Shown here in pieces: positions 6,931 to 22,103 of a stretch of 64,000 nucleotides of DNA. The stretch's first letter is position 1; every line of letters starts with the position of its first letter. The stretch is taken from positions 1-64,000 of the forward strand of contig JAFAZW010000061.1 of assembly GCA_019239415.1 (NCBI GenBank). The letters are read 5' to 3'. The position numbers were made by a program, and so were the translations under genes. Origin of the DNA: Alphaproteobacteria bacterium. GTDB lineage: Bacteria > Pseudomonadota > Alphaproteobacteria > Sphingomonadales > Sphingomonadaceae. Below the pieces are notes generated by a model. It did not search any database and had not been told where the DNA came from. It saw nothing but the letters and a program-made list of their open reading frames with translations.

Positions 6931-7238
6931 GCTTGTCCTGCGATGAAACGGGTTCAGGACACTTTTTTCGACACAAAGAAAACGCGGGGGGTTCGGCTGG
7001 CCTCCGCGTGGACGGAGCGTCTCTTGTCCACGGTACCGAAGATCTGCGGCCGTAACCGACGGAACTGTCGCGACAATTTCGTCGCTCCCCGGCGCCACCC
7101 GAGAGACTGTCAAGTCATCGGAATGGCTGGCGCCCCAGATGATGATTCGAACTCGTGGCCTCGCCCGGAATTAGGGTCGCATTCCCGTCACTTAGATACG
7201 GCACACGGGACGCTTCCGCGCAGCAGAGACGGGTTCGC
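6931..7238. repeat. Island-boundary repeat, copy 1
   Basis: This stretch aligns over most of its length with 17329-17662 and, with an interruption, with 21636-22026. Shared blocks are a GGGTTCAGGACAC-like start, CCTCCGCGTGGAC with a 7-bp hairpin (7008-7014/7025-7031, loop 10), GGAATGGCTGGCGC, and a GATTCGAAC T-loop-like core at about 7143-7151. The hairpin ends 97 bases before the TGGCGC block, as in copies 2 and 3. It contains a decayed tRNA 3' arm (7128-7166) rather than a functional tRNA. Confidence 0.75.
7116..7166 (-). repeat. Decayed tRNA-Arg 3'-end (att-like) in copy 1
   Basis: On the plus strand TCATCGGAATGGCTGGCGCC, then GATTCGAAC and GTGGCC, parallels the 3' end of the intact tRNA-Arg gene at 22014-22057. 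Acceptor and T-stem pairing are disrupted, so it cannot be a tRNA. Such fragments are typical left-over attachment sites of elements that integrate in tRNA genes; that role is inferred. Confidence 0.55.
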
Positions 7239-7276
7239 AGCTGAAGCTTTGGGTGCCCGCTCGCTTGCTCACGTCG

Positions 7277-7363
7277 GTGTCTCTGTCCTGTAGGAAATCG
7301 GCTTCAGGACACTTGGTGACGCGCAGAGAAAATGACGCTCGGCTGCCGTCCGCGTGGACAGGC
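7277..7363. repeat. Island-boundary repeat, partial copy 1'
   Basis: This stretch is close to 17330-17420: the blocks GTGTCTCTGTCCTGTA, GAAATCGGCTTCAGGAC and GTGACGCGCAGAGAAAATG are shared. It lacks the tRNA-like end. It sits between copy 1 and the TonB receptor terminator. Confidence 0.75.
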
Positions 7364-7408
7364 GCGGCCCCTTGGGCGCGCGAATCCAGTTTGGTTCAGA
7401 AACGAAAG

Positions 7409-7437
7409 GCAGCCGCCCCGAGACGCGGGACGGCTGC
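7409..7437 (-). terminator. Intrinsic terminator of the TonB receptor gene
   Basis: An 11-bp stem (7409-7419 with 7427-7437, one wobble pair) lies 26 bases after the receptor stop. On the minus strand it is followed by CTTTCGTTTC, a fair U-tract. Confidence 0.8.
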
Positions 7438-7462
7438 AGGGGACTCCGGGAGAGGCCGGAGA

Positions 7463-10357
7463 TCAGAACGAGTAACGGGCTCCCAGGATGAACTGGCGGC
7501 CGCTGTGCGTCAGCACGTTGAGACGGTTGGAGACGTCCACGAACTGGTCGTTGAGTTCGTCGGTGAGGTTGATCATCTCAAGCGTCACCTTCAGGCGGTT
7601 TGTGAAGCTGTAGGAGACCTGCGCGTCGACGTTCGTGGTTGCGTTGGTGCCGTTGTAGCTGTTGCCCTCGGTGCCGGGCACCGCGGTCAGATACTTCGAG
7701 CGGTAGGCCAGCGACACGCGGGCCGACAGCTTCTTGTCCTCGTAATAGAGGGTGGCGTTGGCGGCGTGCTTGGAGAGCCCGACGAGTGGCGCGCGGACGC
7801 TCGTGCTGCCGTCGGCGGCGGTCAGGTATTGGATCTTGGAATCCACAAACGTGTAGTTTGCAAGGACGCCGAAATTCTTGAGGAAACCGGGCAGGAAGAC
7901 GAAGGGCTGCTGGATGTTGACCTCGAATCCCCTGAGCGTGCCGCCCTTCGAATTGATCGGCTGGCTGACGATGAAAGAGTCGGTCGGGCTCGCCGGCGTG
8001 CCGTTGAGCAGCTCCGGCGGAAGGCCGAGGGCGCTGTACGGGACGGTGGTGCTCAGCGTCTGGACGAAGGTGCTGATGTTCTTCTGGAACCCAGAGACCG
8101 CGTAGATCGCGCCCTTCACCGGATACCATTCCAGCGACAGGTCGAAGTTGGTCGATTCGGTCGGGTTCAGCGCCGGATTGCCTGAGCTGAAGGTGCGGTT
8201 GCCGCCTGAGACGTTGAGATTGCCGCCCGGCGTGATCGACGAGATGCCGGCGCGCGCCAGCGTCTTCGCTGCCGCGGCGCGCGCGAGCAGGGTGTCGGTG
8301 ATGTCGACGACGACGTTCGCCGACGGGAGCCACTTGCCATAGGTGCGCGAGGCGGTGACGAGGTTGATCGCCGCGCCCTGGCTCGCATAGCCGGTCGAGA
8401 CCTGATCGGTTTTGACGTAGCGCAGGCCGGCATCGCCGCGGACCGGGAGGCCGAGATGGTTCAGGTTGAACTCGGCCATGCCCCAGACGCCGAGGTCGCT
8501 CTCGCGTACGGTGATAAACGAGCCGCGGGCAGTGGCGTTCTCGATGCCGCCGATCGCGTAGAGCGGGTTCGAGTAGATGCCGTAGAGGTCGATGAACTTC
8601 TGGAGGTCCGGGACGATCCACGCGGTCGGCGTGCCGGTCGGCACGTTGAGGCCGCGGCCGAAGCCCGAAAACAGCGTGGTGCCCGCGGCGACCTGAGCCG
8701 GGGTCAAGGTCTGCACCACCGTCTCGCCCTGGAGGCGGCGGCCTTCAGTCGAATCGTAGGTGAAGCGGCGCCAGTCGACGCCCGCCTTGATCGTCACGGG
8801 CTGCGCGGCCTTCCACTCAAGGAAGCCCTTCGCTGTGGTGAAGGCGTTGTCGACCGTCTGCGGCCGGATGCGGACTTCCGACGTCCCGTTGATGAATGAG
8901 AATGTCGCCGGATTGGTGACGTCGACACCGGGGCGAATGGTCGGAAACCGGGTCGAGAAGTCGTAGAAGAAATTGTTGGTATTGGCCGCGTCGATCGTCA
9001 CCGTCGTCTGGACGGGGTTGGTGAAGGCCGAGCTGGCGTACCCGACCTCGCCGCCGAATTTGAGCGTATCGGTGAACTTGTGGCTGACGCTGCCGGTGAC
9101 CTGGTAGAATTCGGTCTTGAGGATGTCGAAGCGCGACTGGGTCCTCAGATCGACATTGTCGAACGTGCCGCTGATGATGTTATTGTTCGAATCGACCTTG
9201 CCGTCACGGATGACCGTCTGCGGTTTGCCGGTGCCGGAGCGGCTGAAGCTGATCGCCTGGAACTGGGCCTCCCGACGGGTACCCGACAGATTCGAATAGA
9301 GCGCATCGATGGTGAACAGGGTGCGGTCGGTCGGCTGGAACTGGAGCGAGCCCGACGCGCCGAAGCGCTTCTGGAAGATATCGTAGCTGACCAGGCCCGG
9401 GATGCGCGGGTGGTAGAGCGCCGTCGCCGGATCGGCATTGTTGATCTGGGCGATCGAGTAGCCTGGCAAGGTCGAAGTCTTGGCGAAGCCGCCGTTGAAC
9501 CCGCCATAGGTCCACCGCGTGATGTTCGCCCCTTCCTCCTTGAGCTGGCGCTCCTCGTAGGCGACCGAGAGCAGCGCGCCGAAGCGGCCGTCCGGCGTGA
9601 CGGTGCTGACCAGCCCCGAGAGACGCGGCGTCACCTTGCGCTTGAGGTCGTTCCAGCTCCCCTGGACCGAGACGACCTTGGTCGGCTTTTTGTAGTCGAA
9701 CGGCCGTCCGGTCTGGAGGTCCACCGTGCCGCCGAGCGAGCCTTCCTCGATGTCGGCAGTGGCCGTCTTGCGGACGGCGAGGCTGTTGAACAGGTCGGAA
9801 GAGAAGATGTTGAAGTCGAAGCCGCGGCCGCGGTTGACGCCGCCCGAATTGTCGGTGCCCCCGGTAGTACCGATGGCTTCCATCCCGTTGATGCGGACCC
9901 GCGTGTAATCGGGACCGAGGCCGCGCACCGAGATGTTGCGACCTTCGCCGTTCACCCGGCTGATCGCGACGCCCGGGATACGCTGGAGCGACTCGGCGAG
10001 GTTGAGGTCGGGGAATTCGGCGATGTCCTCGGCCTTGATGACATCCATGGTCGCCGTCTCGTTGCGCTTTTGGCTGAGCGCCGAACCAAGGCTGCTGCGA
10101 AAACCGGTGACGACGATCGCCTCTCCCCCGGCCTCGGGAACGTCGCCCGGAGCAGCCGTGACAGGCGCCGCCTGCGGAGCTGCGGGGGAGGCTGGCGGCT
10201 GGTCGGTCGTGGCGGGACTGCCGGGGACGCGCGAGGCCTTCTCCTCGTTCGTGTTCGGCGACGTTTGCGCATGGGCGACCGGCGCAACCGCAAGCGCCGC
10301 GACGGCGGTGGAAACGGTCAGCGCGAACCTGAAACCGGTAACGCCAGCAAAGGCCAT
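7463..10357 (-). CDS. TonB-dependent outer-membrane receptor
   Basis: Encodes 964 residues: a signal peptide ending near AHAQ (~31), a low-complexity Pro/Ala linker, a TonB box-like region EAIVVTGFRSS, a plug domain (about 90-220, with IPGVAISRVNGEGRNISVRGLGPDYTRVRINGM) and a 22-strand-type barrel ending in Phe (ILGARYSF). This matches the large Xanthomonas/Caulobacter-type receptor class (TIGR01782-like) that imports oligosaccharides. ATG 10357 is chosen because GAGGGGA lies eight bases upstream. It is divergent from the MFS gene across a 296-base control region and probably brings the substrate of the neighbouring exported enzymes into the periplasm. The substrate is inferred from context only. 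Confidence 0.93.
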   Translation of the reverse strand: MAFAGVTGFRFALTVSTAVAALAVAPVAHAQTSPNTNEEKASRVPGSPATTDQPPASPAAPQAAPVTAAPGDVPEAGGEAIVVTGFRSSLGSALSQKRNETATMDVIKAEDIAEFPDLNLAESLQRIPGVAISRVNGEGRNISVRGLGPDYTRVRINGMEAIGTTGGTDNSGGVNRGRGFDFNIFSSDLFNSLAVRKTATADIEEGSLGGTVDLQTGRPFDYKKPTKVVSVQGSWNDLKRKVTPRLSGLVSTVTPDGRFGALLSVAYEERQLKEEGANITRWTYGGFNGGFAKTSTLPGYSIAQINNADPATALYHPRIPGLVSYDIFQKRFGASGSLQFQPTDRTLFTIDALYSNLSGTRREAQFQAISFSRSGTGKPQTVIRDGKVDSNNNIISGTFDNVDLRTQSRFDILKTEFYQVTGSVSHKFTDTLKFGGEVGYASSAFTNPVQTTVTIDAANTNNFFYDFSTRFPTIRPGVDVTNPATFSFINGTSEVRIRPQTVDNAFTTAKGFLEWKAAQPVTIKAGVDWRRFTYDSTEGRRLQGETVVQTLTPAQVAAGTTLFSGFGRGLNVPTGTPTAWIVPDLQKFIDLYGIYSNPLYAIGGIENATARGSFITVRESDLGVWGMAEFNLNHLGLPVRGDAGLRYVKTDQVSTGYASQGAAINLVTASRTYGKWLPSANVVVDITDTLLARAAAAKTLARAGISSITPGGNLNVSGGNRTFSSGNPALNPTESTNFDLSLEWYPVKGAIYAVSGFQKNISTFVQTLSTTVPYSALGLPPELLNGTPASPTDSFIVSQPINSKGGTLRGFEVNIQQPFVFLPGFLKNFGVLANYTFVDSKIQYLTAADGSTSVRAPLVGLSKHAANATLYYEDKKLSARVSLAYRSKYLTAVPGTEGNSYNGTNATTNVDAQVSYSFTNRLKVTLEMINLTDELNDQFVDVSNRLNVLTHSGRQFILGARYSF

Positions 10358-10466
10358 CAGACTTCCCCTCATTCGGCGTCTCGTGCGCCGCATCGGTTGG
10401 CCCGGCTCCCACGACGCCGGACAAGGACAGCTTCCGTTACCCGCCGCCGCTTCGCCAAAGCCAATC

Positions 10467-10481
10467 TCAATCGGGCATTGA
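10467..10481. promoter_or_regulatory. Candidate operator in the TonB receptor/MFS divergent region
   Basis: TCAAT-N5-ATTGA forms a perfect 5-bp dyad in the 296-base gap between the divergent receptor and transporter genes. It extends into ATTGATC, the same TTGATC half-site found in the dyad before kdgD (17258-17286). The LysR gene of this module is the likely binder, but this is not shown. Nothing else with clear structure is seen in the gap. Confidence 0.35.
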
Positions 10482-10653
10482 TCGTTGCGGTTCGCGCACC
10501 GATCACCGGCGGCTTTCCGGCGCCTTCCCGCGCGCGCGTGCCCATCGAGCCAAGAGCCGACTGGATCATGCCGCTTTTCGGCTTGGACGCCCGCGCCGCG
10601 CCCCTCTAATCGTCCCCGCCCAGACCAGCCGGCAGAGGATGGCGAGGAGAGCA

Positions 10654-11967
10654 ATGGCGGCCGCTGAGCAACCGACGCGCGTGCGCCACCGCATCATAGC
10701 GCTCATCTTCCTCATCACGTCGATCAACTATGCCGACCGGGCGACCTTCTCGATCGCCGGCAACGCCGCCTCGCACGAGCTCGGCTTGTCCGCGGTCCAG
10801 ACCGGCTTCATCCTCTCTGCCTTCGCCTGGGCCTATGTGCTCGCGCAGATTCCGGGCGGTGCCCTGCTGGACCGGTTCGGGACCAAGCGAATCTACGTCG
10901 GCGCGATCCTGTTGTGGTCGCTGTGCACGGCGTTGCAGGGCGTCCCGGGCCTCGTCGCCGGCGGCACCGCGGTCGCGACCTTGTTCGCGCTGCGCTTCCT
11001 GGTCGGACTCGCCGAGGGTCCCTCCTTCCCCGGCAATGCACGCCTCGTCGCCGCCTGGTTCCCGGGCCCGGAGCGGGGAACCGCCGCGGCAATCTTCAAC
11101 TCGGCTCAATATTTCTCGATCGTCGCCTTCGCGCCGCTGATGGGCTGGCTCGTCCACGCCTTCGGCTGGCGGAGCATCTTCTGGGCGATGGGGGCGCTGG
11201 GCCTCGCCGCCGCGGCGAGCTTCGCCGCCTTCATTCACAGCCCGCTTCGCCACCCGTCGATCAATTCAGCCGAGCTGCGCCATATCGAGGAGGGCGGCGG
11301 CCTGGTCGGGATCGAGGAGAGGGTCGAAGCGAAGCAGCGCACCTTCACCTGGCCGAACCTTCGGCAGCTTCTCTCGAGCCGGATGATGGTCGGCATCTAC
11401 CTCGCCCAATATGCGATCAACGTGCTCACCTATTTCTTCGTCACCTGGTTTCCGATCTATCTGGTGAAGGAACGCGGCCTCACCATCGTCCAGGCCGGTT
11501 TCGCGGCCGCCGTCCCTGCCCTGTTCGGCTTCGCGGGCGGCCTCGTCGGCGGCTTCGCCTCGGACCTGATCCTCAAGCGGACGGGGTCGCTCGACGTCGC
11601 CCGCAAGGCGCCGATCGTCGCCGGCATGCTGCTCGCCACCCTGATCATCGGCTGCGTGTTCGTGCAGGCGCAATGGCTGGTCATCGCGCTGATGGCGCTC
11701 GCCTTCTTCGGCAAGGGCGTAGGCTCGCTCGGCTGGGCGGTGATGGCCGACGTCTCGCCGAAGGAGCTGGCGGGCCTCGCGGGCGGCGTCTTCAACACCT
11801 TCGGCAACGTCGCCGGCATCGTCGCGCCGATCGTCGTCGGCTACATCGTCGGCGCCACGGGATCGTTCGACCTGGCCCTGGTCTTCGTCGGCGGCCACTG
11901 CCTGCTGACCATCTTCGCCTTCCTCGTCATCGTCGGGCCGATCCGCCGGCTGGAGCTCACGTCATGA
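10654..11967 (+). CDS. MFS transporter, hexuronate/glucarate-type (ACS family)
   Basis: Inner-membrane carrier of 437 residues with 12 predicted helices. The N-terminus (ITSINYADRATFSIAG) and the loop GGALLDRFGTKRIYVGAI are typical of the anion:cation symporter branch of MFS that takes up hexuronates, glucarate or galactonate. I choose ATG 10654 over 10639 because GAGGAGAG lies five bases before it. Its stop overlaps the start of the next gene (ATGA), so transporter and exported enzyme form an operon. Placed with KdgD, it probably imports the aldarate or uronate released in the periplasm. Exact substrate unknown. Confidence 0.85.
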   Translation: MAAAEQPTRVRHRIIALIFLITSINYADRATFSIAGNAASHELGLSAVQTGFILSAFAWAYVLAQIPGGALLDRFGTKRIYVGAILLWSLCTALQGVPGLVAGGTAVATLFALRFLVGLAEGPSFPGNARLVAAWFPGPERGTAAAIFNSAQYFSIVAFAPLMGWLVHAFGWRSIFWAMGALGLAAAASFAAFIHSPLRHPSINSAELRHIEEGGGLVGIEERVEAKQRTFTWPNLRQLLSSRMMVGIYLAQYAINVLTYFFVTWFPIYLVKERGLTIVQAGFAAAVPALFGFAGGLVGGFASDLILKRTGSLDVARKAPIVAGMLLATLIIGCVFVQAQWLVIALMALAFFGKGVGSLGWAVMADVSPKELAGLAGGVFNTFGNVAGIVAPIVVGYIVGATGSFDLALVFVGGHCLLTIFAFLVIVGPIRRLELTS

Positions 11968-13787
11968 TCGTCGATCGCCGCGCCTTCCTCGCCGGTACTG
12001 CCTTGGCCGCGACTGTTCCCGCCGCCGCCGCGGGCCCGCGCGCCGACCTCCGCATCGCGACGCCGACGGCGCCGCCGCGCTGGGCGGTGCTCGAACGCAG
12101 GCTTCTGCAGGCGAACGCCGAGGCGTGCGAGGCCTTCTACCGCACCTATGTCGATTCTCGCGACTGGCTGAAGGTGTTCGCGCGCTGGGGCGCCAATGAC
12201 GGCCCCGACGATGCCGCCGAATTCACGAACGACTGGATGATCCTGCACGCGCTCGGCGGCTCGGACCGGCTGCTCGATCTCAGCCGGCGCTATTACGAAG
12301 GCCATATCCGCCAGTACACCGCCGCTCGCACGCGGGACGTCCCGGCCGCGCGACAGGGCATGTATTTCCGCGAATTCCCGGTCCAGATGGACTGGCAGCA
12401 CAATTCCGAAGGGCTCACCACCTTCAACGTCTTCGGCCTCAGCGAGCCGCGAGACCCGAAGCTGCTCGAGCGCACCCGCCGCTTCGCCGATTTCTACACC
12501 GGCCGGGACCCGACGGCGCCGAACTACGACCCGGCCCGCCGGATCATCCGCAGCGTCCTCAATGGCAGCCGCGGTCCGATGCTGCGCGAGGCGACGCCGG
12601 TGGACTGGGCGGGCGATCCGTTCGACCCCCGCCCCTTCCACATGGAGCATGGCGAGACGACCTACGAGCAGACGCTCGGCCATTATGCCGAATATGGTCA
12701 TGTCGCCGGCGACAACCCGCTCAACCTCCAGGCGACCACGCTCGGCCTCAACGCCTATGCGCTCGGCGGCGAGGAAAGGTACCGCCACTGGGCGCTCGAT
12801 TATCTCGGCGCCTGGGCCGAGCGCGCCCATGCCAATGGTGGGATCGTGCCGAGCTATGTCGGCCTCGACGGCAAGGTCGGCGCGGACTGGTGGCGCGGCG
12901 TCTACGGCTGGGGCTTCTCGCCGGTCGTCCCGCAGACCGGCAAGCGCGAAGATCGCAACCGCGTCCCGCGCTCGATCACCGCCTTCTACAACGCGCTCCT
13001 GCTGAGCGGCGACATGGGCTTCATCCACCTCTGGCGCGAGCAGAACCGGCGCATCAACGCCGCAGCGAAGACCGTGAACGGCGTCCCTTCCGCCCCGACC
13101 ATGTACGGCGCGAACGGCTGGTACGGTTTCAAGCCAGGTCCCTACCGCACCAGCGGCTTCGAGATCTGGTACGCGACACAGGCGCGCGAGGATCGCGAGG
13201 CGGCGGGAGACCATCCTTGGCTCGCCTTCCTCGAAGGCCGCAATTCCGGCTATCCCGAGGCGGCGATCGAGGCGGACTTCCGGCACATCGCCGACCGGGT
13301 GGCGGCGCGCGAGGCGGACCGCACGACGCCCGAGACGCGGCTTGCCGACTGGCCGCTCGACATCAACCCGGCGAGCGCCAACGCCCTCGTCCAGCTGATG
13401 ACCGGCGGGCTCCACGTCGCGCGGCCGCCCTGGTCGCCGACCAGCCCCGCGCAGGGCGGGGTGCCGCTCCATTGCCGCCTCCGCTATTTCGACGCCGACC
13501 GCCGGCGGGCGGGGGTACCGGAAGATATCGCCGCCCTCGTCCACAGCCTCGGCGACCGCGAGACCGAAGTGACGCTGGTGAACCTCGGACGCCAGCCGCG
13601 CACGGTCATCGTCCAGGGCGGCTCCTGGGGCGAGCACCGCATCGACAGCGTGACCATGAACGGCGAAACCCGCCGCATCGCTGGCCGCCACTTCGGAGTG
13701 CGTATCGAGCCGGGGTGCGGGGCGCGCCTCACCCTCGCAATGACGCGCTACGTCAACCGGCCTTCGCTGGCCTTTCCCTGGGCCTAG
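11964..13787 (+). CDS. Tat-exported protein of unknown function, probable alpha/alpha-toroid enzyme
   Basis: Encodes 607 residues. The N-terminus carries DRRAFLAG followed by a hydrophobic stretch and AAAAG, a twin-arginine signal. The mature part is helix-rich and full of aromatic residues, e.g. MYFREFPVQMDWQHNSEG, GHYAEYGHVAGDNPLN and WWRGVYGWGFSPVVPQ. This spacing is reminiscent of six-hairpin glycosidases and polysaccharide lyases. The last ~120 residues look like a beta-sandwich. I do not recognise the family. The ATG overlaps the MFS stop (ATGA), and the 3' end overlaps the convergent esterase gene by 4 bases. Context (TonB receptor, uronate-type transporter, KdgD) suggests it acts on a uronate-containing glycan in the periplasm; this is inference. 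Confidence 0.75.
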   Translation: MIVDRRAFLAGTALAATVPAAAAGPRADLRIATPTAPPRWAVLERRLLQANAEACEAFYRTYVDSRDWLKVFARWGANDGPDDAAEFTNDWMILHALGGSDRLLDLSRRYYEGHIRQYTAARTRDVPAARQGMYFREFPVQMDWQHNSEGLTTFNVFGLSEPRDPKLLERTRRFADFYTGRDPTAPNYDPARRIIRSVLNGSRGPMLREATPVDWAGDPFDPRPFHMEHGETTYEQTLGHYAEYGHVAGDNPLNLQATTLGLNAYALGGEERYRHWALDYLGAWAERAHANGGIVPSYVGLDGKVGADWWRGVYGWGFSPVVPQTGKREDRNRVPRSITAFYNALLLSGDMGFIHLWREQNRRINAAAKTVNGVPSAPTMYGANGWYGFKPGPYRTSGFEIWYATQAREDREAAGDHPWLAFLEGRNSGYPEAAIEADFRHIADRVAAREADRTTPETRLADWPLDINPASANALVQLMTGGLHVARPPWSPTSPAQGGVPLHCRLRYFDADRRRAGVPEDIAALVHSLGDRETEVTLVNLGRQPRTVIVQGGSWGEHRIDSVTMNGETRRIAGRHFGVRIEPGCGARLTLAMTRYVNRPSLAFPWA

Positions 13788-15328
13788 CCGCCGGGCTTCA
13801 CGTAGGGAGCCACCTCGAACAGCAACCTCTCCTCCCGCCGCGGATCGAATTCGATGCGGCACGTTCGGTCGAAGATCATGGTTGCGCGCCGCTCCAGGCC
13901 ATAATGCGGCCAGTGCGGGAGCGCGCGCGTATTGGGATCGCCCGTGCGGGCCAAGGCGATGAACGCGTCGGCCACCTTGCCGGCGAGGGCGCTTGCGTCG
14001 GCGCCGTTGCCGGTGCGGGCGCCGGGTTGACCGGTGTTGTCGAAGACGAGCGGGATATCGAGGGTGTGGAACGCGCCGAGCACCCCGCCGGCCTCGGGCG
14101 ACGGGAAATCGAGCTGGTACATCCACGTCGGCGCGCCGATCTTCGCCCGCTCCTGCGCCTGGATGAGGTGCCCTGGCCAAGAGCGCGAGGCGGTGGAAGC
14201 GGCGAGCAGGATCTCGCCGGGCGTCCGGTTCGGATAGAGCTGGCGGTAGCGCGCGATCACGTAATCGGGCGCGAGATCGCGCACCATTTCCTTCGCGAGG
14301 CGGGCGGGGAGGTTCTCCCAGGTCGTATCGCCCCTCTTCAGCGTCTCCCCGATCCAGGCGCCGGTCTCGTCGTGGGTGTTGCCGATGACGAGCGGGATGT
14401 GCGCGGCTTCGCGTGGCGCGTCCGGATAGAAGGGATGGCGGGTCAGCACGACGTGGTCGAGCGTCGAGACGAAGCTGATCTCACCCTTGCCCTCGATCGG
14501 GTCGGTCATGGCCATGGCCGCCACGAGCCGCTCTATCGGCAGCGCGGCAAGTTCGCGCGCCGACGTGGCGCCGGCCTTTGCCATCCACGCCCGGGCCCGT
14601 TCGGTGGCGTGGAGCGGGCCGGCGGCGGTGACGTGCTGGCCGCTCATCGTGGCTGCGGCGTGGAAAAGCGGCCGCGCCTCCGCCATCGCCATCAGGGTGA
14701 CCACCTTGGCCCCGCCGCCGGACTGGCCGAAGATCATAACGCGCGACGGATCGCCGCCGAAGTTGGCGATGCTGTCGCGCACCCACTGAAGCGCGAGGAC
14801 GATGTCGAGATTGCCGACATTGCCCGATTCGGCGGGGCCGCCGAGTTGGGCGAGATAGGCGTAACCCAGCCCGGCGAGGCGGTGGTTGAGGGTCACGACG
14901 ACGACGTCGCCGCGCCGCGCGAGGTTCGCCCCATCGTAGAGCGGGTCGGAGCCCGATCCGTGTGAGTGGGCGCCGCCGTGGAGATAGACCATTACCGGCC
15001 GCCGTCCGGCATCGAGGGCGGGGGTCCAGACGTTGAGGAAGAGGCAGTCTTCGGAGGTCCGCTCCTCCGGCCTGGTCTGCGGCGCCGCGGGGCCGTAGCG
15101 GGTCGCGTCGGCGACGGCCATCCAGGGCCGAGGGGGCAGCGCGCGCTGGAAGCGGCGCGGAGCAGTGTCGGCGCCGTAACGAATGCCGCGGAAGAGGAGG
15201 ACACCGCGCTCGCGAAGGCCGCGCACGCGGCCGTAGCGTGTCGCCGCGACGGGATCGCCGGCGGGAGGCGCCGCGGCGAGCAACGGGGCGACCGCGAGGC
15301 CGCCGAGCACCGTGCGCCGGTCGATCAT
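13784..15328 (-). CDS. Tat-exported type-B carboxylesterase
   Basis: Encodes 514 residues of the carboxylesterase/lipase alpha-beta hydrolase family. A Tat signal (DRRTVLGG plus hydrophobic stretch) sends it to the periplasm. Visible motifs are FRGIRYG near the N-terminus, SEDCLFLNVWTP, oxyanion-hole HGGAHSHGS, the nucleophile elbow FGQSGGGA, an acidic residue in GNTHDETGAW and the catalytic His in GAFHTLDIPLVF. Length fits the family. Its start overlaps the stop of the lysR gene (ATGA), so it lies in the kdgD-lysR-esterase operon. A role in removing ester groups from the imported glycan is likely from context; the natural ester is unknown. Confidence 0.88.
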   Translation of the reverse strand: MIDRRTVLGGLAVAPLLAAAPPAGDPVAATRYGRVRGLRERGVLLFRGIRYGADTAPRRFQRALPPRPWMAVADATRYGPAAPQTRPEERTSEDCLFLNVWTPALDAGRRPVMVYLHGGAHSHGSGSDPLYDGANLARRGDVVVVTLNHRLAGLGYAYLAQLGGPAESGNVGNLDIVLALQWVRDSIANFGGDPSRVMIFGQSGGGAKVVTLMAMAEARPLFHAAATMSGQHVTAAGPLHATERARAWMAKAGATSARELAALPIERLVAAMAMTDPIEGKGEISFVSTLDHVVLTRHPFYPDAPREAAHIPLVIGNTHDETGAWIGETLKRGDTTWENLPARLAKEMVRDLAPDYVIARYRQLYPNRTPGEILLAASTASRSWPGHLIQAQERAKIGAPTWMYQLDFPSPEAGGVLGAFHTLDIPLVFDNTGQPGARTGNGADASALAGKVADAFIALARTGDPNTRALPHWPHYGLERRATMIFDRTCRIEFDPRREERLLFEVAPYVKPGG

Positions 15329-16218
15329 TGCGCCGCGATCTCGGCGCAGAGGCGGCGCATGCTTTCCAGGGCCGGGTTGGCGTTGTCGCGCCGCCAGGCG
15401 ACGTGCATCTCCACCGGATTCTCCGGGTTCGTCACGAGCCGGCGGAACTGGACGTCCTGGAAGTGCAGCCCCGAGGCCGATTCCGGGACGATCGCGGCGC
15501 CGATACCGGCACGGACCAGACCGAGCATCGAATGGATCTGCGCGACGTGCTGGACGTAGACGGGCGCGGCGCCGGCGTCGTCGAACAGCCGGACGAGCAT
15601 GTCGTGGAAATAGCCGGCGCCCTGGCGCGCATACATGATCAGCGGCTGGCCGTCGAAATCCTCCGAACGGAAGGTCGGCTGCCCCTGGCGCGGATCGCCG
15701 GGCGGAAGCGCGACTAGGAGGGGCTCGGCGAGCACGCTCTTCGTCTCGAATTCCTGCCGGTCGACCGGCGGCCGCACGAAGGCGATGTCGATGAGGCCGG
15801 TGAGCAGCGCCTCGACCTGATCGGTGGTGACCATCTCCTTGAGCTCCACCTCGATATTGGGGAGCGAGGCGCGCGCCTGGGCAACGATTTGGGGAATGAG
15901 GCTGTAGCCGGAGACCGCGGTGAAGCCGATCGCGATCCGCCCGGCGTCGCCGTGCGCGACGCGGCGGGCGGAGAGCGCGGCGCTTTCCGCAAGACGCACG
16001 ATGCGCCGCGCCTCGATGAGGAATACGCGGCCGGCGGGGGTGAGCGAGACGGTGCGGCTGGTCCGCTCGAGCAGGGTCAGGCCGAGAATGCGCTCGAGGA
16101 GTTGGATCTGCCGGCTGAGCGGCGACTGGGTCATGTTGAGGCGCTGCGCCGCGCGGCCGAAATGGAGTTCCTCGGCCGCCGCGACGAAGCAGCGGAGCTG
16201 GCTCAGCTCGAACATCAT
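15325..16218 (-). CDS. LysR-family transcriptional regulator of the glycan/uronate module
   Basis: Encodes 297 residues: a winged helix-turn-helix (about 1-65, FGRAAQRLNMTQSPLSRQI) and a LysR substrate-binding domain (about 90-295, DIAFVRPP, IGAAIVPES). It lies between kdgD (18 bases upstream) and the esterase (4-base overlap), so it is produced with the genes it probably controls. Two Met codons start the frame; 16218 is used, 16215 is equally possible. Candidate binding sites sharing TTGATC lie at 10467-10481 and 17258-17286. The inducer is likely a uronate or aldarate intermediate (inference). Confidence 0.9.
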   Translation of the reverse strand: MMFELSQLRCFVAAAEELHFGRAAQRLNMTQSPLSRQIQLLERILGLTLLERTSRTVSLTPAGRVFLIEARRIVRLAESAALSARRVAHGDAGRIAIGFTAVSGYSLIPQIVAQARASLPNIEVELKEMVTTDQVEALLTGLIDIAFVRPPVDRQEFETKSVLAEPLLVALPPGDPRQGQPTFRSEDFDGQPLIMYARQGAGYFHDMLVRLFDDAGAAPVYVQHVAQIHSMLGLVRAGIGAAIVPESASGLHFQDVQFRRLVTNPENPVEMHVAWRRDNANPALESMRRLCAEIAAQ

Positions 16219-16236
16219 GGGCGCGCCATAGGCCGT

Positions 16237-17175
16237 TCAGGCCGCGGCGGCGAGTTCCCCGGGCGACGCCCGTTCGATGAGAAGCCGGAGCTCCTCATGC
16301 TCCTCCGCGGTGAGGTCGACGAGCGGGGCGCGCACCGGACCCGGATCGCGTCCGACCAGCCGGCAGCCGGCCTTGATGATCGAGACCGCATAGCCACGTC
16401 CGCAGTCGCGCAGCGCGATGTAGGGTAGGACGAAGTCCTGGAGCCGCTTCAGCACCTCCTCGTTCCGGCCGGCGCGTACGGCCCGATAGAAGCCCAGCGC
16501 CCATTCCGGCATGAAGTTGAAGATCGCCGATGAGTAGGTGGTCACGCCCATCGTCAGATAGGGCGTCGCGAAGGTTTCGGCCGTCGGAAGCCCGCCCACA
16601 TAGGTGAGGCGGTCACCCATGCGCGCGTGGATGCGCGTCATCAGCTCGATATCGCCCACTCCGTCCTTGTAGCCCACGAGGTTCGGGTTGCGCTCGCACA
16701 GCCGGGCGAGCGTGTCGTCGCGGACGATCGCGTTGTCGCGGTTGTAGACGATGACGCCAAGCCCCGTGGCGCGGCAGACGGCCTCGATGTGCCGCTCCAG
16801 CCCTTCCTGGCTCGGCTGCACGAGATAGGGCGGGAGAAGAAGGAGTCCGTCCGCTCCGGCGGCCTCCACGCCGCGCGCGATATCGACGGCAATCGCGGTG
16901 CCGTAGCCGCAGCCGGCGACGACCGGAACGCGGCCGGCAACTTCCCGCACCGCAGCCGCCACGACCGCGGCGACCTCACCTGGCGTCAGCGAGAAGAACT
17001 CGCCGGTCCCCCCGGCTGGGAACAGCCCGCTCAACTCATGATCGAGCATCCATGCGCAATGCGCGCGGTAAGTGTCTTCGCGAAACGCCCCCTGGACGTC
17101 GAAATGGGTGACCGGAAAGGAGAGGAGCCCGCCGCCGAGGCTTCGCGCCATGTCTGTCGGATCCCACCTGCTCAC
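16237..17175 (-). CDS. kdgD: 5-dehydro-4-deoxyglucarate dehydratase
   Basis: Encodes 312 residues of the dihydrodipicolinate synthase/N-acetylneuraminate lyase superfamily. It converts 5-dehydro-4-deoxy-D-glucarate to 2,5-dioxopentanoate, CO2 and water in oxidative uronate or aldarate catabolism. KdgD-type marks are [34 protein letters not shown] with the catalytic Tyr, and the Schiff-base Lys in VGYKDGVGD. The GTG at 17175 is chosen because AGGAGG lies six bases upstream; an ATG at 17151 is less well placed. First gene of the kdgD-lysR-esterase operon. The downstream semialdehyde dehydrogenase and upstream dehydratases are not in the module, so they must be encoded elsewhere. Confidence 0.92.
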
Positions 17176-17257
17176 ACTTATCCTCCTTGCGCCCGTCACC
17201 TGAGCGTCGACGCTTCTTAGGACGGAGCGGTGCCGGAGGGCCAAGCTAAAGGGGCAA

Positions 17258-17286
17258 TGGATCAATGCACCCGAGGACTTGATCCA
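17258..17286. promoter_or_regulatory. Candidate operator upstream of kdgD
   Basis: TGGATCAA at 17258-17265 and TTGATCCA at 17279-17286 form a perfect 8-bp dyad with a 13-base spacer, about 83 bases before the kdgD start. The half-site is shared with the dyad at 10467-10481. A LysR-type operator is the simplest reading. Confidence 0.4.
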
Positions 17287-17328
17287 CATCGCTTGCCGAA
17301 TGGCCGGTCTGTTCGCTGGCTCGAAGAC

Positions 17329-17662
17329 GGTGTCTCTGTCCTGTACGAAATCGGCTTCAGGACCCTTTGTGACGCGCAGAGAAAATGCGGCGGGTTCGCC
17401 TGGCCTCCGCGTGGACAGAGCGTCTCTTGTCCACGGCACCGAAAATGCGCGACCGTAACCTGCGGAATTGTCGGGACGACTCCGCCGCTCACAGGCGTCA
17501 CCCCAGAGACGGCTAAGTCATTGGAATGGCTGGCGCCCCAGATCATGATTCGAACTCTTGGACTTGCATTCAACTTCGGCCTCTGAATTCGGGCCCATTT
17601 TCCGTGGGTTACGAGAGACACGCAGGCCATTCGGTCTCTGCGGGAGACGGGTTCGCACCGGA
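17329..17662. repeat. Island-boundary repeat, copy 2
   Basis: This copy contains all blocks of the repeat in order: the CTGTCCTGTACGAAATCGG region, CCTCCGCGTGGACA with its 7-bp hairpin (17411-17417/17428-17434, loop 10), TCATTGGAATGGCTGGCGC, a GATTCGAAC core, and a tail with GAGACGGGTTCGCA that copy 1 also has. The hairpin to TGGCGC distance is 97 bases. It separates module 1 from module 2. Confidence 0.78.
17519..17566 (-). repeat. Decayed tRNA-Arg 3'-end (att-like) in copy 2
   Basis: TCATTGGAATGGCTGGCGC is identical to the sequence at 22014-22032 that ends the intact tRNA-Arg gene. A GATTCGAAC T-loop-like core follows. Stem pairing is lost. It is interpreted as an old attachment-site duplication. 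Confidence 0.55.
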
Positions 17663-17727
17663 CTGGACGCACCAGCGCGCATACCGGCACCGCTTGGGCG
17701 GCATTGTCCGCATGTAACGCTCCTTCC

Positions 17728-18651
17728 TCACGGCGTGAGTGTGCGGACGAAGAAGGCCGTTACCGACCTGTTGAACTCTTGGTGGAACGCGGTCCTGTCG
17801 AAGCCGGGTTTGTCCTGGCAGATAACCGGCGGGCTCTCCGGCCCGCACGGCGCAAGAAAGGAGAGGTGCACGGCGCCATCGACGCGATGGAAGTCTACAG
17901 AGCGCCCGAGCTGATTCTTCACGAGGGCGCCGTTCGTCGCGTAGGGTACGGTCTGGTCTTCGCCTCCGACCCAGAGCTGGACGGGGACGTGGACCTTCGC
18001 AAGGCCCGACGGCACGAAGGTGAAGCCGAGCCCAGGTGCAGCGAGGACTGCCGCCGCGATGCGCGGATCGTGCACCCATTGCTGCGTGGCAGGCTCCTGC
18101 GCCTTCATGATCTTGCAGACGAACTCCGGTTGCGCGCTACAATGCGGAGCGATCCGCCCAAGGTCTGGCGTGCCGCCGATCGCCACAAGGGCCGCGGTCG
18201 CGCCGGCGGACATCCCGAACACCCCTATCCGCTTCGGCGAGAGGCGGGCATGGCCCTCCCAGCGGGCTAGCATGTAGTCGATTACGTTGCTGAGATCCCG
18301 CGCCCGGTTCGCCATCCACTCGGGCTTGCCGACGCTGCTGTCGTCTTGGAAATTATCCCCCGGGTGCATCGGCGCGGCGACGACGAAGCCGGCGCGAGCC
18401 AGTGCCTGGGCAGTGTCGATGTGCCCGGCAGGCCCGCCGCCGGTACCATGCGACATCACGACGAGAGGCAGCTTCGTTCCGGAGGTGGGCGCCCAGATTG
18501 CCACCGTGATCGGTGCGTGGCCTGGCCCGTCTACAACGGCCTGCTGCACGGTGAACGAAGCCGCAGGGGCGGTAGGTGTCTGCGCAAGAGCCGGGAGAGC
18601 CGGCACCATCAGGCAGCATGCAACCGCTGCCGCAGTCTTCAGCATCGTCAT
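17728..18651 (-). CDS. Exported alpha/beta hydrolase (dienelactone-hydrolase-like)
   Basis: Encodes 307 residues with a Sec signal peptide ending near ALAQ (~23). Hydrolase-fold marks are VVMSHGTGGGPAGH, the nucleophile elbow FGMSAGATAAL, Asp in WVGGEDQTVP and His in DGAVHLSF. It resembles secreted dienelactone hydrolase/platelet-activating-factor-acetylhydrolase-like esterases of proteobacteria. The ATG at 18651 overlaps the upstream MFS stop (ATGA) and has GAGGAGA six bases before it. Third gene of the cupin-MFS-hydrolase operon. Four Cys residues in the mature part suggest disulfides, consistent with a periplasmic location. Substrate unknown. Confidence 0.85.
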   Translation of the reverse strand: MTMLKTAAAVACCLMVPALPALAQTPTAPAASFTVQQAVVDGPGHAPITVAIWAPTSGTKLPLVVMSHGTGGGPAGHIDTAQALARAGFVVAAPMHPGDNFQDDSSVGKPEWMANRARDLSNVIDYMLARWEGHARLSPKRIGVFGMSAGATAALVAIGGTPDLGRIAPHCSAQPEFVCKIMKAQEPATQQWVHDPRIAAAVLAAPGLGFTFVPSGLAKVHVPVQLWVGGEDQTVPYATNGALVKNQLGRSVDFHRVDGAVHLSFLAPCGPESPPVICQDKPGFDRTAFHQEFNRSVTAFFVRTLTP

Positions 18652-20030
18652 CGAAGGTCTCCTCGTAGGTAGGACTCGAATGGGATCACACGGCAGCACT
18701 CCAGCTGCGGTCTGGAAGGAGTGGGGTACGCGCTCACGAGCGCTGCTACGGCGGCGCAAATCGAAGCGAAGATGAGTGTAGTCGCGATGGCGGTCGTCGC
18801 CGGTGAACAGGCAAGCAGCACGCTCAGCACCAAAGCCCCCGTCGTCTGCCCTGCAAGGCGTGCGCTGCCCTGCAGTCCTCCTGTGGCGGCGCTCCTTTCG
18901 GCCGGCGCCGACAGGAACATCCGCCTGTTGTTTGGAACCTGAAACAACCCGAAGCCGACGCCGCCCAACAGTGCGCCCAGTAGGAACGACCAGAGATTGG
19001 GTTGTGCGGGAAAGAGAACGGTCCAAATAAGGCCGGAGGCCAGGAGTACGGCGCCGGTAGCGCAGAGGACCGGCTCGGCCATCCGGCGCGCCAGCCTGTT
19101 CGCCACGGGGCTCGCCGCCGCAACGCCCATTGGCCAGCACACCAGGACCAACCCGGCGGTCAGCACCGGCCGATGGAGGTTGAGCTGCAGATGGAGGGGG
19201 AGCGCCAACAGGCCGGCTGTCTGACCGGCGAAGCAACAGACCGACGCAAGCACCGCCCGCCGAAACGCTCGCAGCTCCAGCAGATCGAGCGGCACGAGCG
19301 GCTGATCAAGCGACGCATTCCGGCGGAACAGCAAGGCCGCGGACGTCGCCGCAACCACCGCAAGCACGACGGCCGTCGCGGGTCGCGTGACGGCGAACTG
19401 CGCTGCTGCCACGACGGAGCCTGCCGTGAGTGTGTGAAGCGTGATGCTCAACAGGTCGATGTTGCTCCGCGAGCGTTCGGAGCGGGGCAATGCCGTCGCG
19501 GCCGCGAGAGCGACGAGAGCGACGGGGAGCTTGCCCAGGAACAGCCAAGGCCATTGCGCCGCGGTCAGAATTGCGGCGCCAGCGATGGGAGCGGCTGCCG
19601 AGCAGAGGGCGACCGTGAGTGCGTTCCAGGCGATCGCCGCCCCGAGACGCTCGTTCCCCAACGACGTGCGCAGCAGCGCGATGCCGAGCGCCATGACCGT
19701 CGATCCGCCGAAGCCCTGGAAAATCCGCGCTGTAACCAACATCGGGAGCGACCCACCGCAGGCCGCCGCAATCGATGCGGCGCTGAACAATGCCACTCCG
19801 GCGATGAACATGGACCGAGCGCCGAACCGTTCCGCCAAGTGCGCCGCGGGAAGCAGTCCTGCGAGGAGCGCCGCCTGATAGCTGCTGACGACGAGCATGA
19901 TCGAGGCCGCGTCAGCCCGGAGCGCGTGCCCGATGGTTGGAAGGGCGACGTTCATCAGCCCCGTGTCAAGGACGACCAGGGCCATTGCCGCCAGCACCGC
20001 GAGGGTGGCCCAGCGCTCATGCCCGGTCAT
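18648..20030 (-). CDS. MFS efflux transporter, DHA2-type
   Basis: Encodes 460 residues with about 14 hydrophobic helices. The N-terminal VVLDTGLMNVALPTIGHAL corresponds to the first-helix motif of drug:H+ antiporters, and HLAERFGARSMFIAG and ARIFQGFGGSTVMALG are MFS motifs A and B. ATG 20030 overlaps the stop of the cupin gene (ATGA) and the 3' end overlaps the hydrolase start, so three genes are translationally coupled. The likely role is export of a toxic compound that the cupin or hydrolase also handles. Specificity cannot be read from sequence. Confidence 0.85.
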   Translation of the reverse strand: MTGHERWATLAVLAAMALVVLDTGLMNVALPTIGHALRADAASIMLVVSSYQAALLAGLLPAAHLAERFGARSMFIAGVALFSAASIAAACGGSLPMLVTARIFQGFGGSTVMALGIALLRTSLGNERLGAAIAWNALTVALCSAAAPIAGAAILTAAQWPWLFLGKLPVALVALAAATALPRSERSRSNIDLLSITLHTLTAGSVVAAAQFAVTRPATAVVLAVVAATSAALLFRRNASLDQPLVPLDLLELRAFRRAVLASVCCFAGQTAGLLALPLHLQLNLHRPVLTAGLVLVCWPMGVAAASPVANRLARRMAEPVLCATGAVLLASGLIWTVLFPAQPNLWSFLLGALLGGVGFGLFQVPNNRRMFLSAPAERSAATGGLQGSARLAGQTTGALVLSVLLACSPATTAIATTLIFASICAAVAALVSAYPTPSRPQLECCRVIPFESYLRGDLR

Positions 20031-20569
20031 GCCTGCGGTGCGAACCATTGGCCATCCCGCTCGACGAAGCGCGTGACTTTTCGCTCGACCTGATCCTCGC
20101 GACGGAGATCGCGCTCGGTGAAGCGAAAGACGAGTGCGCGCTCCGTGCGGCACCTTGTGTCGTGAACGTCACCCGGCAGGTAGGCGCGTGCTTCACCGCG
20201 GCGCAGCACGATGGTGCCGCGCCGGACGAGCCGTTCGCCGTCCTCACCGGCAACACGAGCATAGGTGCCTACCTCGAGTTCGCCCGATTGAACGCCGTAG
20301 ACTACCCAGGCCCGCCCGTGGTCGTGGGGGGGCCGATACAGTCCCTCCAGTTCAGTGTGGGCCAACAGCATGAAGCCGTGCATCGGATCGCGATGGAGTT
20401 CGCGGGTGGCCGGACCTTCGGCGAGTAGACGGGCCAGCCAATCCTCGCCGGGATCCGAGAGGCTCAGTGCGTCCATTCCAGCCCGGCAGTGCGCGACAAG
20501 ATCGGAATCGATCGGTCGCCAAGCCGCGCGAACGTCAGCGACAAACCTCTCGAGTGAAGTTTCAGCCAT
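20027..20569 (-). CDS. Cupin-fold metal-binding protein
   Basis: Encodes 180 residues. The second half has a cupin pattern: PPHDHGRAWVVYGVQSGELE as motif 1 (His-x-His ligands) and YLPGDVHDTRC with a further His. A helical N-terminal half precedes it, as in cysteine-dioxygenase-like and COG5553-type proteins. Start at ATG 20569 is preferred over an in-frame GTG at 20578. First gene of the operon and divergent from the LysR gene, whose candidate binding site lies at 20651-20665. It may be an oxygenase or isomerase acting on the compound the operon exports; unproven. Confidence 0.7.
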   Translation of the reverse strand: MAETSLERFVADVRAAWRPIDSDLVAHCRAGMDALSLSDPGEDWLARLLAEGPATRELHRDPMHGFMLLAHTELEGLYRPPHDHGRAWVVYGVQSGELEVGTYARVAGEDGERLVRRGTIVLRRGEARAYLPGDVHDTRCRTERALVFRFTERDLRREDQVERKVTRFVERDGQWFAPQA

Positions 20570-20650
20570 CCCCGGCACCCTCGCTCGATTGCTTGGTGCC
20601 GACCTTACGTTGAGCCCGACCTGGGCGGAAGAAGCACAGATTGCATTCTA

Positions 20651-20665
20651 TCGTTGCGCTCAACG
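20651..20665. promoter_or_regulatory. Candidate LysR box between cupin operon and lysR
   Basis: CGTTG-CGCT-CAACG (20652-20665) is a perfect dyad and fits the T-N11-A pattern of LysR sites. It lies 33 bases before the lysR start and about 83 bases before the divergent cupin start. Confidence 0.45.
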
Positions 20666-20697
20666 CGCTATGTTCCAAGTCTAAGGGGGGTTCACGA

Positions 20698-21603
20698 ATG
20701 GCAGTTCCGGACTTCAACTTGCTCCAGACGCTGGACGTCCTGCTGGCCGAGCAGAGCGTTACGCGCGCGGGGCGCCGGTTGCGGCTGAGCCCCTCGGCGA
20801 TGAGCAGGGCGCTGGCGCGCCTTAGAAAGGTGACCGGCGACGATCTCCTGGTACGAGCCGGACGCGGCCTCGTCCCGACCCGGCGCGCCACCGAAATGCG
20901 GGAAAGAGTACGCGCCCTCGTCGAGGAGGCGCAGATCCTGCTGCGACCCGCCGATCGCCTCGATCTCGCGACGTTGGAGCGGACGTTCACCCTGCGCACC
21001 AGCGACGGCTTCGCCGAGACTTTCGGGCCTCGGCTGATCGGGCAGGTCCAACAGGAGGCGCCGGGCGTGCGACTGCGGTTCATACGCAAGCTCGACAAGA
21101 GCAGCGAGGGACTGCGCGGCGGTACGGTGGATCTGGAAACGGGCGTCGCCGTCGGCACGACCGGGCCGGAGCTGCGAACCCAGCTCCTCTTCGCCGACCG
21201 TTATGTCGGAGCCGTTCGGAGTGACCATCCGCTGGCGCGGGAGACGGTGGACCTCGCCGGCTACTGCGCTTGGAGTCACGTCATTGCATGGCGCGAGGGT
21301 CTCGATCTTGGGGGAATCGACGAACGGCTGGGGAGCCTCGGGCTATCACGGCAGATCATGACGAGCGTGGACGGGTTCTCGGCGGCGCTGGCCCTCGCGA
21401 GAGGCTCGGACCTTATCGCAACGGTACCGGACGGCCATACGGCCGGCCTGCGAGAGGGAATGTTCACCTTCCCTCTTCCGCTCCATCTGGACGACTTCTC
21501 GGTGTCCCTGCTCTGGCACCCGCGCCTGCACGGCGATGCAGCGCACCGCTGGTTGCGCGGTTGCGTGCGCGAAGCGTGCGCCAGGAGGCGGGATTCAGTC
21601 TGA
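20698..21603 (+). CDS. LysR-family transcriptional regulator of the cupin-MFS-hydrolase operon
   Basis: Encodes 301 residues: helix-turn-helix (about 3-62, LLAEQSVTRAGRRLRLSPSAMSRALARLR) and an effector-binding domain (about 90-295). ATG 20698 follows a G-rich Shine-Dalgarno (20685-20690); a longer frame from 20641 has no such signal and would cover the operator. Divergent arrangement with the cupin operon and an intervening LysR box suggest it controls that operon. The 3' end is followed closely by repeat copy 3. Confidence 0.9.
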   Translation: MAVPDFNLLQTLDVLLAEQSVTRAGRRLRLSPSAMSRALARLRKVTGDDLLVRAGRGLVPTRRATEMRERVRALVEEAQILLRPADRLDLATLERTFTLRTSDGFAETFGPRLIGQVQQEAPGVRLRFIRKLDKSSEGLRGGTVDLETGVAVGTTGPELRTQLLFADRYVGAVRSDHPLARETVDLAGYCAWSHVIAWREGLDLGGIDERLGSLGLSRQIMTSVDGFSAALALARGSDLIATVPDGHTAGLREGMFTFPLPLHLDDFSVSLLWHPRLHGDAAHRWLRGCVREACARRRDSV

Positions 21604-22026
21604 AGCGGTAGGTGCCCGCCGTTACACTCGTCGCTCTATCGTGCACGAAAATGGGTTCAGGGCACTTTCTAAGAGCCCCCGGAATGAGAACGTCCGCTTC
21701 ACCGTGTGTCGTTAAGGCCGCCGAGCGTCCGCTAGTGGCGTGAAGCGACATTGCGCGCCCTCTGCACCTGCCGGACCAACGGCGGCGGTTTGGCGACTGG
21801 CTGCGGTGCAGCCAGTCTTGTGTCGAGCCGTGGCCTCGCCGCTATTCCATCTCAGGCCAGATGTGTCGGCCTGGAGAATCCGTCCTGGATTTAGGCCTCC
21901 TCCTCGTGGCCAATGAGTCTCGTGGCCACGAAGTGTAATGATGGTCACGCCTAAGCCGCGGGAATTGCACCACAAATTCCGGTCCCATTGCAGAGACCAA
22001 GATAATAGCTAAGTCATTGGAATGGC
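21604..22026. other. Gene-free region left of tRNA-Arg (repeat copy 3)
   Basis: No gene is supported. It holds repeat copy 3, interrupted between about 21678 and 21893 by sequence not shared with the other copies. A small inverted stretch, GGCTGCGGTGCAGCC, occurs at about 21797-21811. Confidence 0.65.
21636..22026. repeat. Island-boundary repeat, copy 3 (next to intact tRNA-Arg)
   Basis: The left block (21639-21677) carries a GGGTTCAGGGCACTTT segment like copy 1. The right block (21895-22026) aligns with copies 1 and 2 and includes the hairpin 21906-21912/21923-21929. The hairpin's fifth pair is C-G instead of A-T, a compensatory change with the same 10-base loop. It ends 97 bases before the tRNA CCA. 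About 215 unrelated bases lie between the blocks. Confidence 0.7.
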
Positions 22027-22103
22027 TGGCGCACCCGACAGGATTCGAACCTGTGGCCTTTGCCTTCGGAGGGCAACGCTCTATCCAGCTGAGCTACGGG
22101 TGC
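22027..22103 (-). tRNA. tRNA-Arg(CCG)
   Basis: Minus-strand tRNA of 77 bases with encoded CCA. The acceptor stem GCACCCG/CGGGTGC pairs fully. The anticodon loop CTCCGAA gives anticodon CCG, reading CGG arginine codons. The T-arm is ACAGG-TTCGAAT-CCTGT. The 3' end adjoins repeat copy 3, and decayed copies of this end lie at 7116-7166 and 17519-17566, suggesting use as an integration site. Confidence 0.97.

Follow-up and report, generated by a model that had tools for sequence, protein, structure and literature searches.

Repeated segments beside a tRNA-Arg(CCG) gene look like decayed entry sites of three or more mobile islands that accumulated successively

The contig JAFAZW010000061.1 (C51 in the following) belongs to the 3.49-Mb genome of an Alphaproteobacteria bacterium of the Sphingomonadaceae (GCA_019239415.1; G000 in the following, 103 contigs). 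Its first 64 kb, which we refer to as the window, contain an intact tRNA-Arg(CCG) gene with a segment that occurs three times beside it. Since the tRNA gene lies on the minus strand, its 3' end faces left, toward an array in which the units C, B, and A repeat leftward. The gene-bearing stretches between the units have the appearance of inserted islands, and two short genes left of A resemble the beginning of an integration module known from other genomes. The array consists of the following features:

22027..22103, minus strand: intact tRNA-Arg(CCG), the anchor (ARAGORN; Rfam RF00005, 71.9 bits), 3' end toward the array
21906..22026, plus strand: predicted attachment-site arm C, adjacent to the tRNA; GTCTCG starts 110 bp before the tRNA end; hairpin at 21904-21931; core motif CTAAGTCATTGGAA
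17324..17570, plus strand: predicted attachment-site unit B; GTCTCT at 17422 (109 bp before TGG), AGAGAC at 17505; then the core and a tRNA-like right half that begins at 17531
6922..7167, plus strand: predicted attachment-site unit A; GTCTCT at 7019 (109 bp before TGG), AGAGAC at 7102; then the core and a tRNA-like right half that begins at 7128
7273..7361, plus strand: partial copy of the outer arm without core, adjoining unit A (BLAST, 87% over 7275-7361)
17571..21905, no strand: putative element 3, the youngest by position; cargo between unit B and arm C
7168..17323, no strand: putative element 2; cargo between units A and B
5577..6137, plus strand: DUF3489 gene, 186 amino acids (PF11994, E 6.5e-20); first gene of an integration module that is seen whole in other genomes
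6137..6298, plus strand: truncated DUF2924 open reading frame (ORF), 53 amino acids, similarity ending near 6262 (PF11149, E 4.6e-5)
6240..6830, minus strand: PIN-domain-like ORF (PF18476, E 5.3e-6), located where the DUF2924 end and the recombinase, both missing, would be expected

The repeat copies and their locus

Three repeat segments had been proposed from the letters alone, without database searches (the sequence-only reading), and all three are present, with both gene modules lying between the copies as described there. Aligned base by base and without gaps, A (6922-7166) and B (17324-17567) are identical at 187 of 231 positions (split at TGGCGC, 154/194 in the left and 33/40 in the right part), and BLAST finds this match within the genome at E = 8.8e-59, whereas C matches B by BLAST in the tRNA-adjacent core only (22008-22050, 91% over 43 bp). 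A profile of seven units locates C at 21906-22053 with E = 4e-29, a match that is given by construction because C is one of the seven. The core and layout of A and B are also those of the tRNA-adjacent copy: TGGCGC stands at 7128 (A), 17531 (B), and 22027 (C), and its distance from the hairpin end is equal in all three units, as had been noticed, although it amounts to 95 bases and not to 97. The array has an intact target gene at one end, and the further copies of the putative attachment site stand in the same orientation.

A genome-wide BLAST search with B retrieves A (231 bp at 82%) and, on another contig, C78, a fourth copy (G000:C78:20149-20352, 204 bp at 81%), in addition to the partial fifth copy listed above and a weak core match on C90 behind tRNA-Arg(TCT). 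As these matches are so few, the repeat can be regarded as specific and not as dispersed, and there is no scatter over many unrelated sites that would speak against insertion at the tRNA: the profile finds four full-length copies in the entire genome, plus the core match. A structured RNA family was rejected as the identity of the repeat since an Rfam scan at gathering thresholds gave two tRNAs only, and a plasmid origin was rejected for lack of a match. A further tRNA-Ala(CGC), called by ARAGORN at 26922-27013 (minus strand) within a haem-oxygenase-like ORF, is probably false, because it has no Rfam support.

The stepwise insertion of islands anchored on tRNA-Arg(CCG), as suggested by the sequence-only reading, is supported by the comparison with related genomes. 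The flank motif is missing at 18 of 19 relatives' tRNA-Arg(CCG) loci; its exact form is present in G004 only, and G005, which is counted among the 18, carries a variant. In the flanks of 15 relatives (about 0.5-15 kb each) no module-level match to window positions 1-22000 was found, just two short matches of 68 and 82 amino acids, which supports stepwise accretion and shows that the two modules are not conserved here in all relatives. An HhH-GPD DNA-glycosylase gene is located near the tRNA in 16 of 22 same-genus glycosylase loci. Comparable arrays of two units exist at tRNA-Arg(TCT) in G004, at tRNA-Phe in G162, and at tRNA-Lys in G109. The array of G004 (L076, G004:C294:18000-37000) extends over 9716-13927, and neither Pfam nor NCBIfam gave a match, at the thresholds applied, for the two ORFs between its units (376 and 782 amino acids).

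Association of the arm with large serine recombinases

Among all hexamers scanned, GTCTCT/AGAGAC is the most enriched one, with 17 copies in seven attachment regions (2463 bp; G000 and G004) against 0.75 expected from its frequency in the window, several of these regions being homologous and therefore not independent. Of 95 control windows, each 430 bp long, 92 lack it, and clusters of at least three copies in 300 bp occur in A, B, and the C78 copy only, among the loci compared. GTCTC starts 109 bp before TGG in A and B and 110 bp before it in C, and an inverted copy lies 82-83 bp after GTCTCT in A, B, and C78. Profile R1, which was made from seven units without structure and searched in 397 family genomes, matches at E <= 0.001 in 132 of them, most of the listed matches covering only the core and the tRNA end. 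Many of the full-length matches in other genera adjoin a gene for a large serine recombinase. For 49 loci the surrounding stretch was read, and seven at which no tRNA was called were dropped; these include L313, which has a recombinase, and L311, which has a clear arm site. Scored within the stretch at each locus, with flank lengths that vary between loci, a large serine recombinase is present at 13 of the 20 sites with GTCTC at 75-140 bp and at none of the 22 without (Fisher p = 3e-6, or 1.3e-5 with 20 distinct arm-less sites, as G219 and G260 entered twice). Since R1 contains the arm, the arm was selected in this sample and the recombinase was not. At 19 of the 20 arm-positive sites the arm site stands 106-112 bp from the tRNA end, a spacing that is partly selected as well because the profile includes the arm, and in L315 it is found at 115 and 134 bp. 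A, B, and C share this trait of the serine-recombinase elements, with GTCTC at about 110 bp before the tRNA end. The tRNAs at the 13 recombinase-bearing sites include those for Arg, Leu, Phe, Ala, Met, Asn, Lys, and Thr, and in genomes and viral contigs together the 3' ends of tRNAs of at least ten amino-acid types lie beside this recombinase family.

The same association appears in a sample chosen by the recombinase. An alignment of seven recombinases (A3) gave the best 80 of 550 relatives on viral contigs, which were not selected on the arm. A tRNA lies within 900 bp beyond the end of the recombinase gene in nine of the 80, in each case with its 3' end facing the gene; elsewhere these contigs contain four tRNAs in 507,173 bp. 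GTCTC at 102-111 bp is found in five of the nine tRNA-facing contigs and in 3.3% of background windows (p = 4e-6), and tRNAs for Gln and Ser are among those of the arm-bearing contigs. All 80 contigs show similarity to DUF2924.

Furthermore, among the stretches tested, those of nine genomes contain a recombinase of nearly full length (G111, G312, G266, G109, G267, G263, G175, G302, and G162), and each of the nine shows the order DUF3489, DUF2924, recombinase, arm, and tRNA or fragment. The module points to the attachment site in all nine, and in G162 it is 7 kb away from the arm. The other stretches tested have recombinase remnants only (four) or no recombinase (five, including the window and C78). 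The DUF3489 gene of the window is complete and matches the copy beside the recombinase in L348 (52% over 179 amino acids). The start of the DUF2924 ORF overlaps it by one base and breaks off near 6262; tblastn with the L344 copy did not match this remnant at E 1e-3. After it follow the PIN-like ORF in opposite direction and then unit A. As both genes lie beside A and point to it, the oldest element, left of A, probably belonged to the family with DUF3489, DUF2924, and a serine recombinase.

The first 22 kb yielded no recombinase (PF00589, Pfam on the ORFs searched, and two serine recombinase queries), elements 2 and 3 no integration gene (Pfam on the ORFs and serine recombinase queries), C51 no PF00589 match (tyrosine integrase), and the window no gene with Resolvase and Recombinase domains, while PF00239 and PF07508 are present at related sites. 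The sequence-only reading was right that these 15 kb hold no integrase gene. The mobilising element, which according to it may be lost or may lie left of the window, is probably not wholly lost, as DUF3489 and the truncated DUF2924 are inside the window. A tyrosine recombinase as the mover, also proposed there, is probably the wrong enzyme, because the arm sequence is associated with a large serine recombinase elsewhere.

We interpret the repeats as attachment-site units belonging to a single family of integrative elements, which would enter at tRNA 3' ends. Each unit would consist of a conserved element arm of about 200 bp ending at the tRNA 3' end, with GTCTC 108-110 bp before that end, followed by the core and a tRNA-like half; the arms of A, B, and C78 additionally carry the inverted AGAGAC nearer the core. 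At tRNA-Arg(CCG) there would have been at least three successive integrations, every new element entering between the tRNA and its predecessor, so that units B and A became internal junctions. The oldest element, left of A, would have carried the complete module with the large serine recombinase, of which DUF3489 and the start of DUF2924 are all that remains, and the two younger ones would carry catabolic cargo. As no integration gene was found in the younger elements, the enzyme may have been supplied in trans or may have been lost. A decayed tandem array of at least three serine-recombinase islands, the inner two without detected integration genes, is in our view the best explanation, with a probability of roughly 0.7. 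Catalysis by such a recombinase, the order of events, and sites that are dead today are what we infer from this arrangement.

Several results weigh against this interpretation. The recombinase was not found in the window and is linked to it by association in other genomes, and the far end of the oldest element (element 1) was not found. The core motif of the window units, CTAAGTCATTGRAA, is typical of islands with tyrosine integrases, and a loose AAGT match at the core is missing from nine of the 13 recombinase-bearing sites. A recombinase is unseen at seven of the 20 arm-positive stretches, one of which (G162) has it 7 kb away, and likewise at the dropped arm site L311; L374, L376, L381, and L354 have recombinase remnants only. 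The DUF2924 remnant reaches 24.2 bits, below the curated Pfam cut-off of 31.2, and covers profile positions 2-37 of 135. In the viral contigs, the arm site is missing in four of the nine that have a facing tRNA, GTCTC in the 300 bp after the recombinase gene is just modestly raised (31/71 compared with 389/1393 windows), a loose regular expression for tRNA-like remnants gave four matches compared with six (upstream) and one (reverse strand) in the controls, and similarity to DUF3489 is seen in 30 of 80. Moreover, for 14 of 15 groups BLAST detects no second copy of the tRNA 3' end within 3-40 kb, so that complete islands of the serine type are not delimited.

Alternative origins of the repeats

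The tRNA-like right halves of A and B bear on whether every unit marks an insertion. Ungapped, they are identical to each other at 33 of 40 positions (alignment score 26), and with gaps they reach scores of 17 and 20 against tRNA-Arg(CCG). Although their best matches are tRNA-Arg genes, the T-stem cannot pair in either of them, as had been seen before, and the changes are shared by both. The two halves, being closer to each other than to the tRNA, do not look as if an intact tRNA end had been captured twice independently, and the earlier idea that each insertion leaves a tRNA remnant is less supported as stated. They look like sequence that is element-borne or was inherited jointly; decay of true fragments together with gene conversion is a possible alternative. 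In other genomes, second units have faulty imitations too: in G162 a tRNA-Phe imitation with 21 perfect bases and then divergence (unit about 2.3 kb away), and in G109 a tRNA-Lys imitation of 25/40 (unit 462 bp away). A scan for imitations in 14 regions gave 25/40 for both, compared with 25 and 24 for the best shuffled queries, and we counted these two because both lie where a second arm unit has its core. In the other regions the scan yielded scores equal to shuffled ones, and in the window its ungapped form ranked neither A nor B first. It may be that elements of the serine-recombinase family carry a sequence that loosely imitates the tRNA end, with crossover at or beyond CCA, so that the tRNA survives.

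The shared non-functional changes (33/40 identical) would also result if B or A were derived from an already decayed unit by duplication, gene conversion, or homologous insertion, in which case there would have been fewer true insertions. Such shared changes are, however, also expected from the element-borne halves of related elements, the units are flanked by different cargo, and arrays of two non-identical units exist elsewhere; we regard this origin as unlikely.

Insertion of the islands by a tyrosine recombinase, with the DUF3489-DUF2924 remnant being merely cargo of one of them, has in its favor that CTAAGTCATTGRAA is common to tyrosine-integrase islands at many tRNAs. The pattern stands directly behind the tRNA end in 57 of 397 family genomes, its reversed form is not among the matches listed for these genomes, and in named genomes it occurs in at least 114 stretches, most of the 80 listed being Alphaproteobacteria; the tRNA is intact at 88 of 110 core-motif sites read, and many isotypes are represented. 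This genome itself harbors a complete tyrosine-integrase island of 9 kb in a tRNA-Ala(CGC) gene on contig C65; the far end of the island bears a tRNA fragment that matches. As in the islands of G163, G386, and G340, to whose integrases the C65 enzyme is 55-69% identical, the tyrosine recombinase lies at the end distal to the tRNA. However, none of the 22 arm-less sites has a serine recombinase, and nine of them bear a TTCCRTAC arm, which is found at none of the 20 sites with GTCTC. In A, B, and C the arms have GTCTC and no TTCCRTAC, and C51 is devoid of a tyrosine integrase match, which makes this origin quite improbable. The C65 integrase was rejected as mover of the window islands because of its different arm sequence, and the tyrosine integrases of G004, G011, G005, and G002 were rejected as partners since the arm hexamer is unclustered in those nine stretches. 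The C65 island (L074, G000:C65:86000-105000, about 8013-17126) provides a clean control from the same genome, and its integrase matched no phage record at 1e-20.

A dispersed non-coding repeat (similar to repetitive extragenic palindromes or miniature inverted-repeat transposable elements) that lies near the tRNA by chance would fit the C78 copy, which has no called tRNA in 20 kb, and the partial copy at 7273, but is highly improbable in view of the small number of full-length copies and of the recurrent, if partly selected, distance of the arm from the tRNA end, seen in other genera at 19 of 20 arm-positive sites.

Cargo, known systems and further islands

The genes found in the two younger elements are:

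17728-19236, minus strand: element 3, hydrolase
18648-20153, minus strand: element 3, EmrB-like transporter of the major facilitator superfamily (MFS)
20641-21603, plus strand: element 3, LysR regulator
7463-10654, minus strand: element 2, TonB receptor
10639-11967, plus strand: element 2, D-galactonate-type MFS transporter
13784-15328, minus strand: element 2, carboxylesterase
15325-16218, minus strand: element 2, LysR regulator
16237-17439 (frame; query used to 17160), minus strand: element 2, 5-dehydro-4-deoxyglucarate dehydratase KdgD

KdgD is present in three of 26 same-genus genomes, this one included. In G003 a syntenic block of 8 kb with the KdgD cluster (77% identity) is located on another contig; the cluster of KdgD, LysR, esterase, MFS, and TonB genes extends over 10229-18991 of L279 (G003:C1:24000-43000), and neither an attachment motif nor a tRNA was found near it in this 19-kb stretch.

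Tandem islands with such cargo have a counterpart in Dehalococcoides, which belongs to a different phylum. In the available parts of PMC3146451, the Dehalococcoides ssrA islands are described as standing in tandem beside an RNA gene, with catabolic cargo, a recombinase of the serine family (DsiB) adjoining the attachment site (here seen at related sites), and 15 islands that lack the module; unlike the window, they target tmRNA, have direct repeats of 20 bp, and use a different six-gene module. Cis-mobilizable elements (CIMEs) and accretion arrays of the ICESt1 type likewise have lost integration genes, kept attachment sites, and stacked at a gene end (PMC5704250, as far as available). No integration gene was found inside elements 2 and 3, as is characteristic of CIMEs, but CIMEs are described there with integrase-bearing partners next door, whereas no partner enzyme is seen here. 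Stacking of islands and loss of integration genes are already well known from the accessible parts of these two works. The islands detected by Islander with tyrosine integrases (PMC4383910, in part) share the tRNA 3' target, the core beside the tRNA end, and the position of the island between tRNA and fragment. The window differs from tyrosine islands in the arm, and from the C65 example in the matching tRNA 3' copy and integrase that the latter has at its far end. The recombinases of phage WO and AcaML1 are homologous to the serine recombinase of the related sites (41-46% identity over 56-65%). In phage WO the gene is located just downstream of a DUF2924 gene; both recombinases belong to phages, and the part of PMC10299305 at hand does not state that tRNAs are targeted.

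Serine-recombinase islands at many tRNAs appear to be little described. One reference work says that large serine recombinases are not known to use tRNA genes, and a 2026 integrase survey, in part, leaves the question of serine recombinases and tRNAs unsettled (PMC12884075). The literature searched, with most subscription journals outside its scope, contained no description of a tRNA-end serine recombinase family and nothing on such attachment sites under the core motif or DUF2924/DUF3489; newer island databases may include them. The chances seem even that widespread large serine recombinases with DUF3489 and DUF2924 use tRNA 3' ends systematically, with a long attachment site and an element-borne imitation of the tRNA end. 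The accessory GTCTCT about 110 bp from the tRNA end would then be part of the site, perhaps bound by the DUF proteins, and the imitation would stand in place of a restoring fragment. As a crossover beyond CCA would spare the tRNA, elements could stack without harm. Search programs whose criteria require both a tyrosine integrase and a tRNA fragment would overlook islands of this kind, and the window illustrates how they may stack and decay, with catabolic cargo left behind.

A longer array lies at tRNA-Gly(GCC) in G371 (L236-L238, G371:C2:312000-362000), with four sites in a row at distances of 10.6-11.2 kb, namely three fragments and the intact gene. None of the five PF00589 matches of that genome is on the array contig, where tyrosine and serine recombinase queries found nothing either. 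At five further sites (L124, L172, L178, L173, and L010), the hosts being Methylobacterium, Tardiphaga, Hyphomicrobiaceae, and Sphingomonas in addition to C78, the core motif and TGGCGC are followed by GCGAAC or a similar sequence instead of a tRNA end; these tRNA-less sites are perhaps unrecombined element halves.

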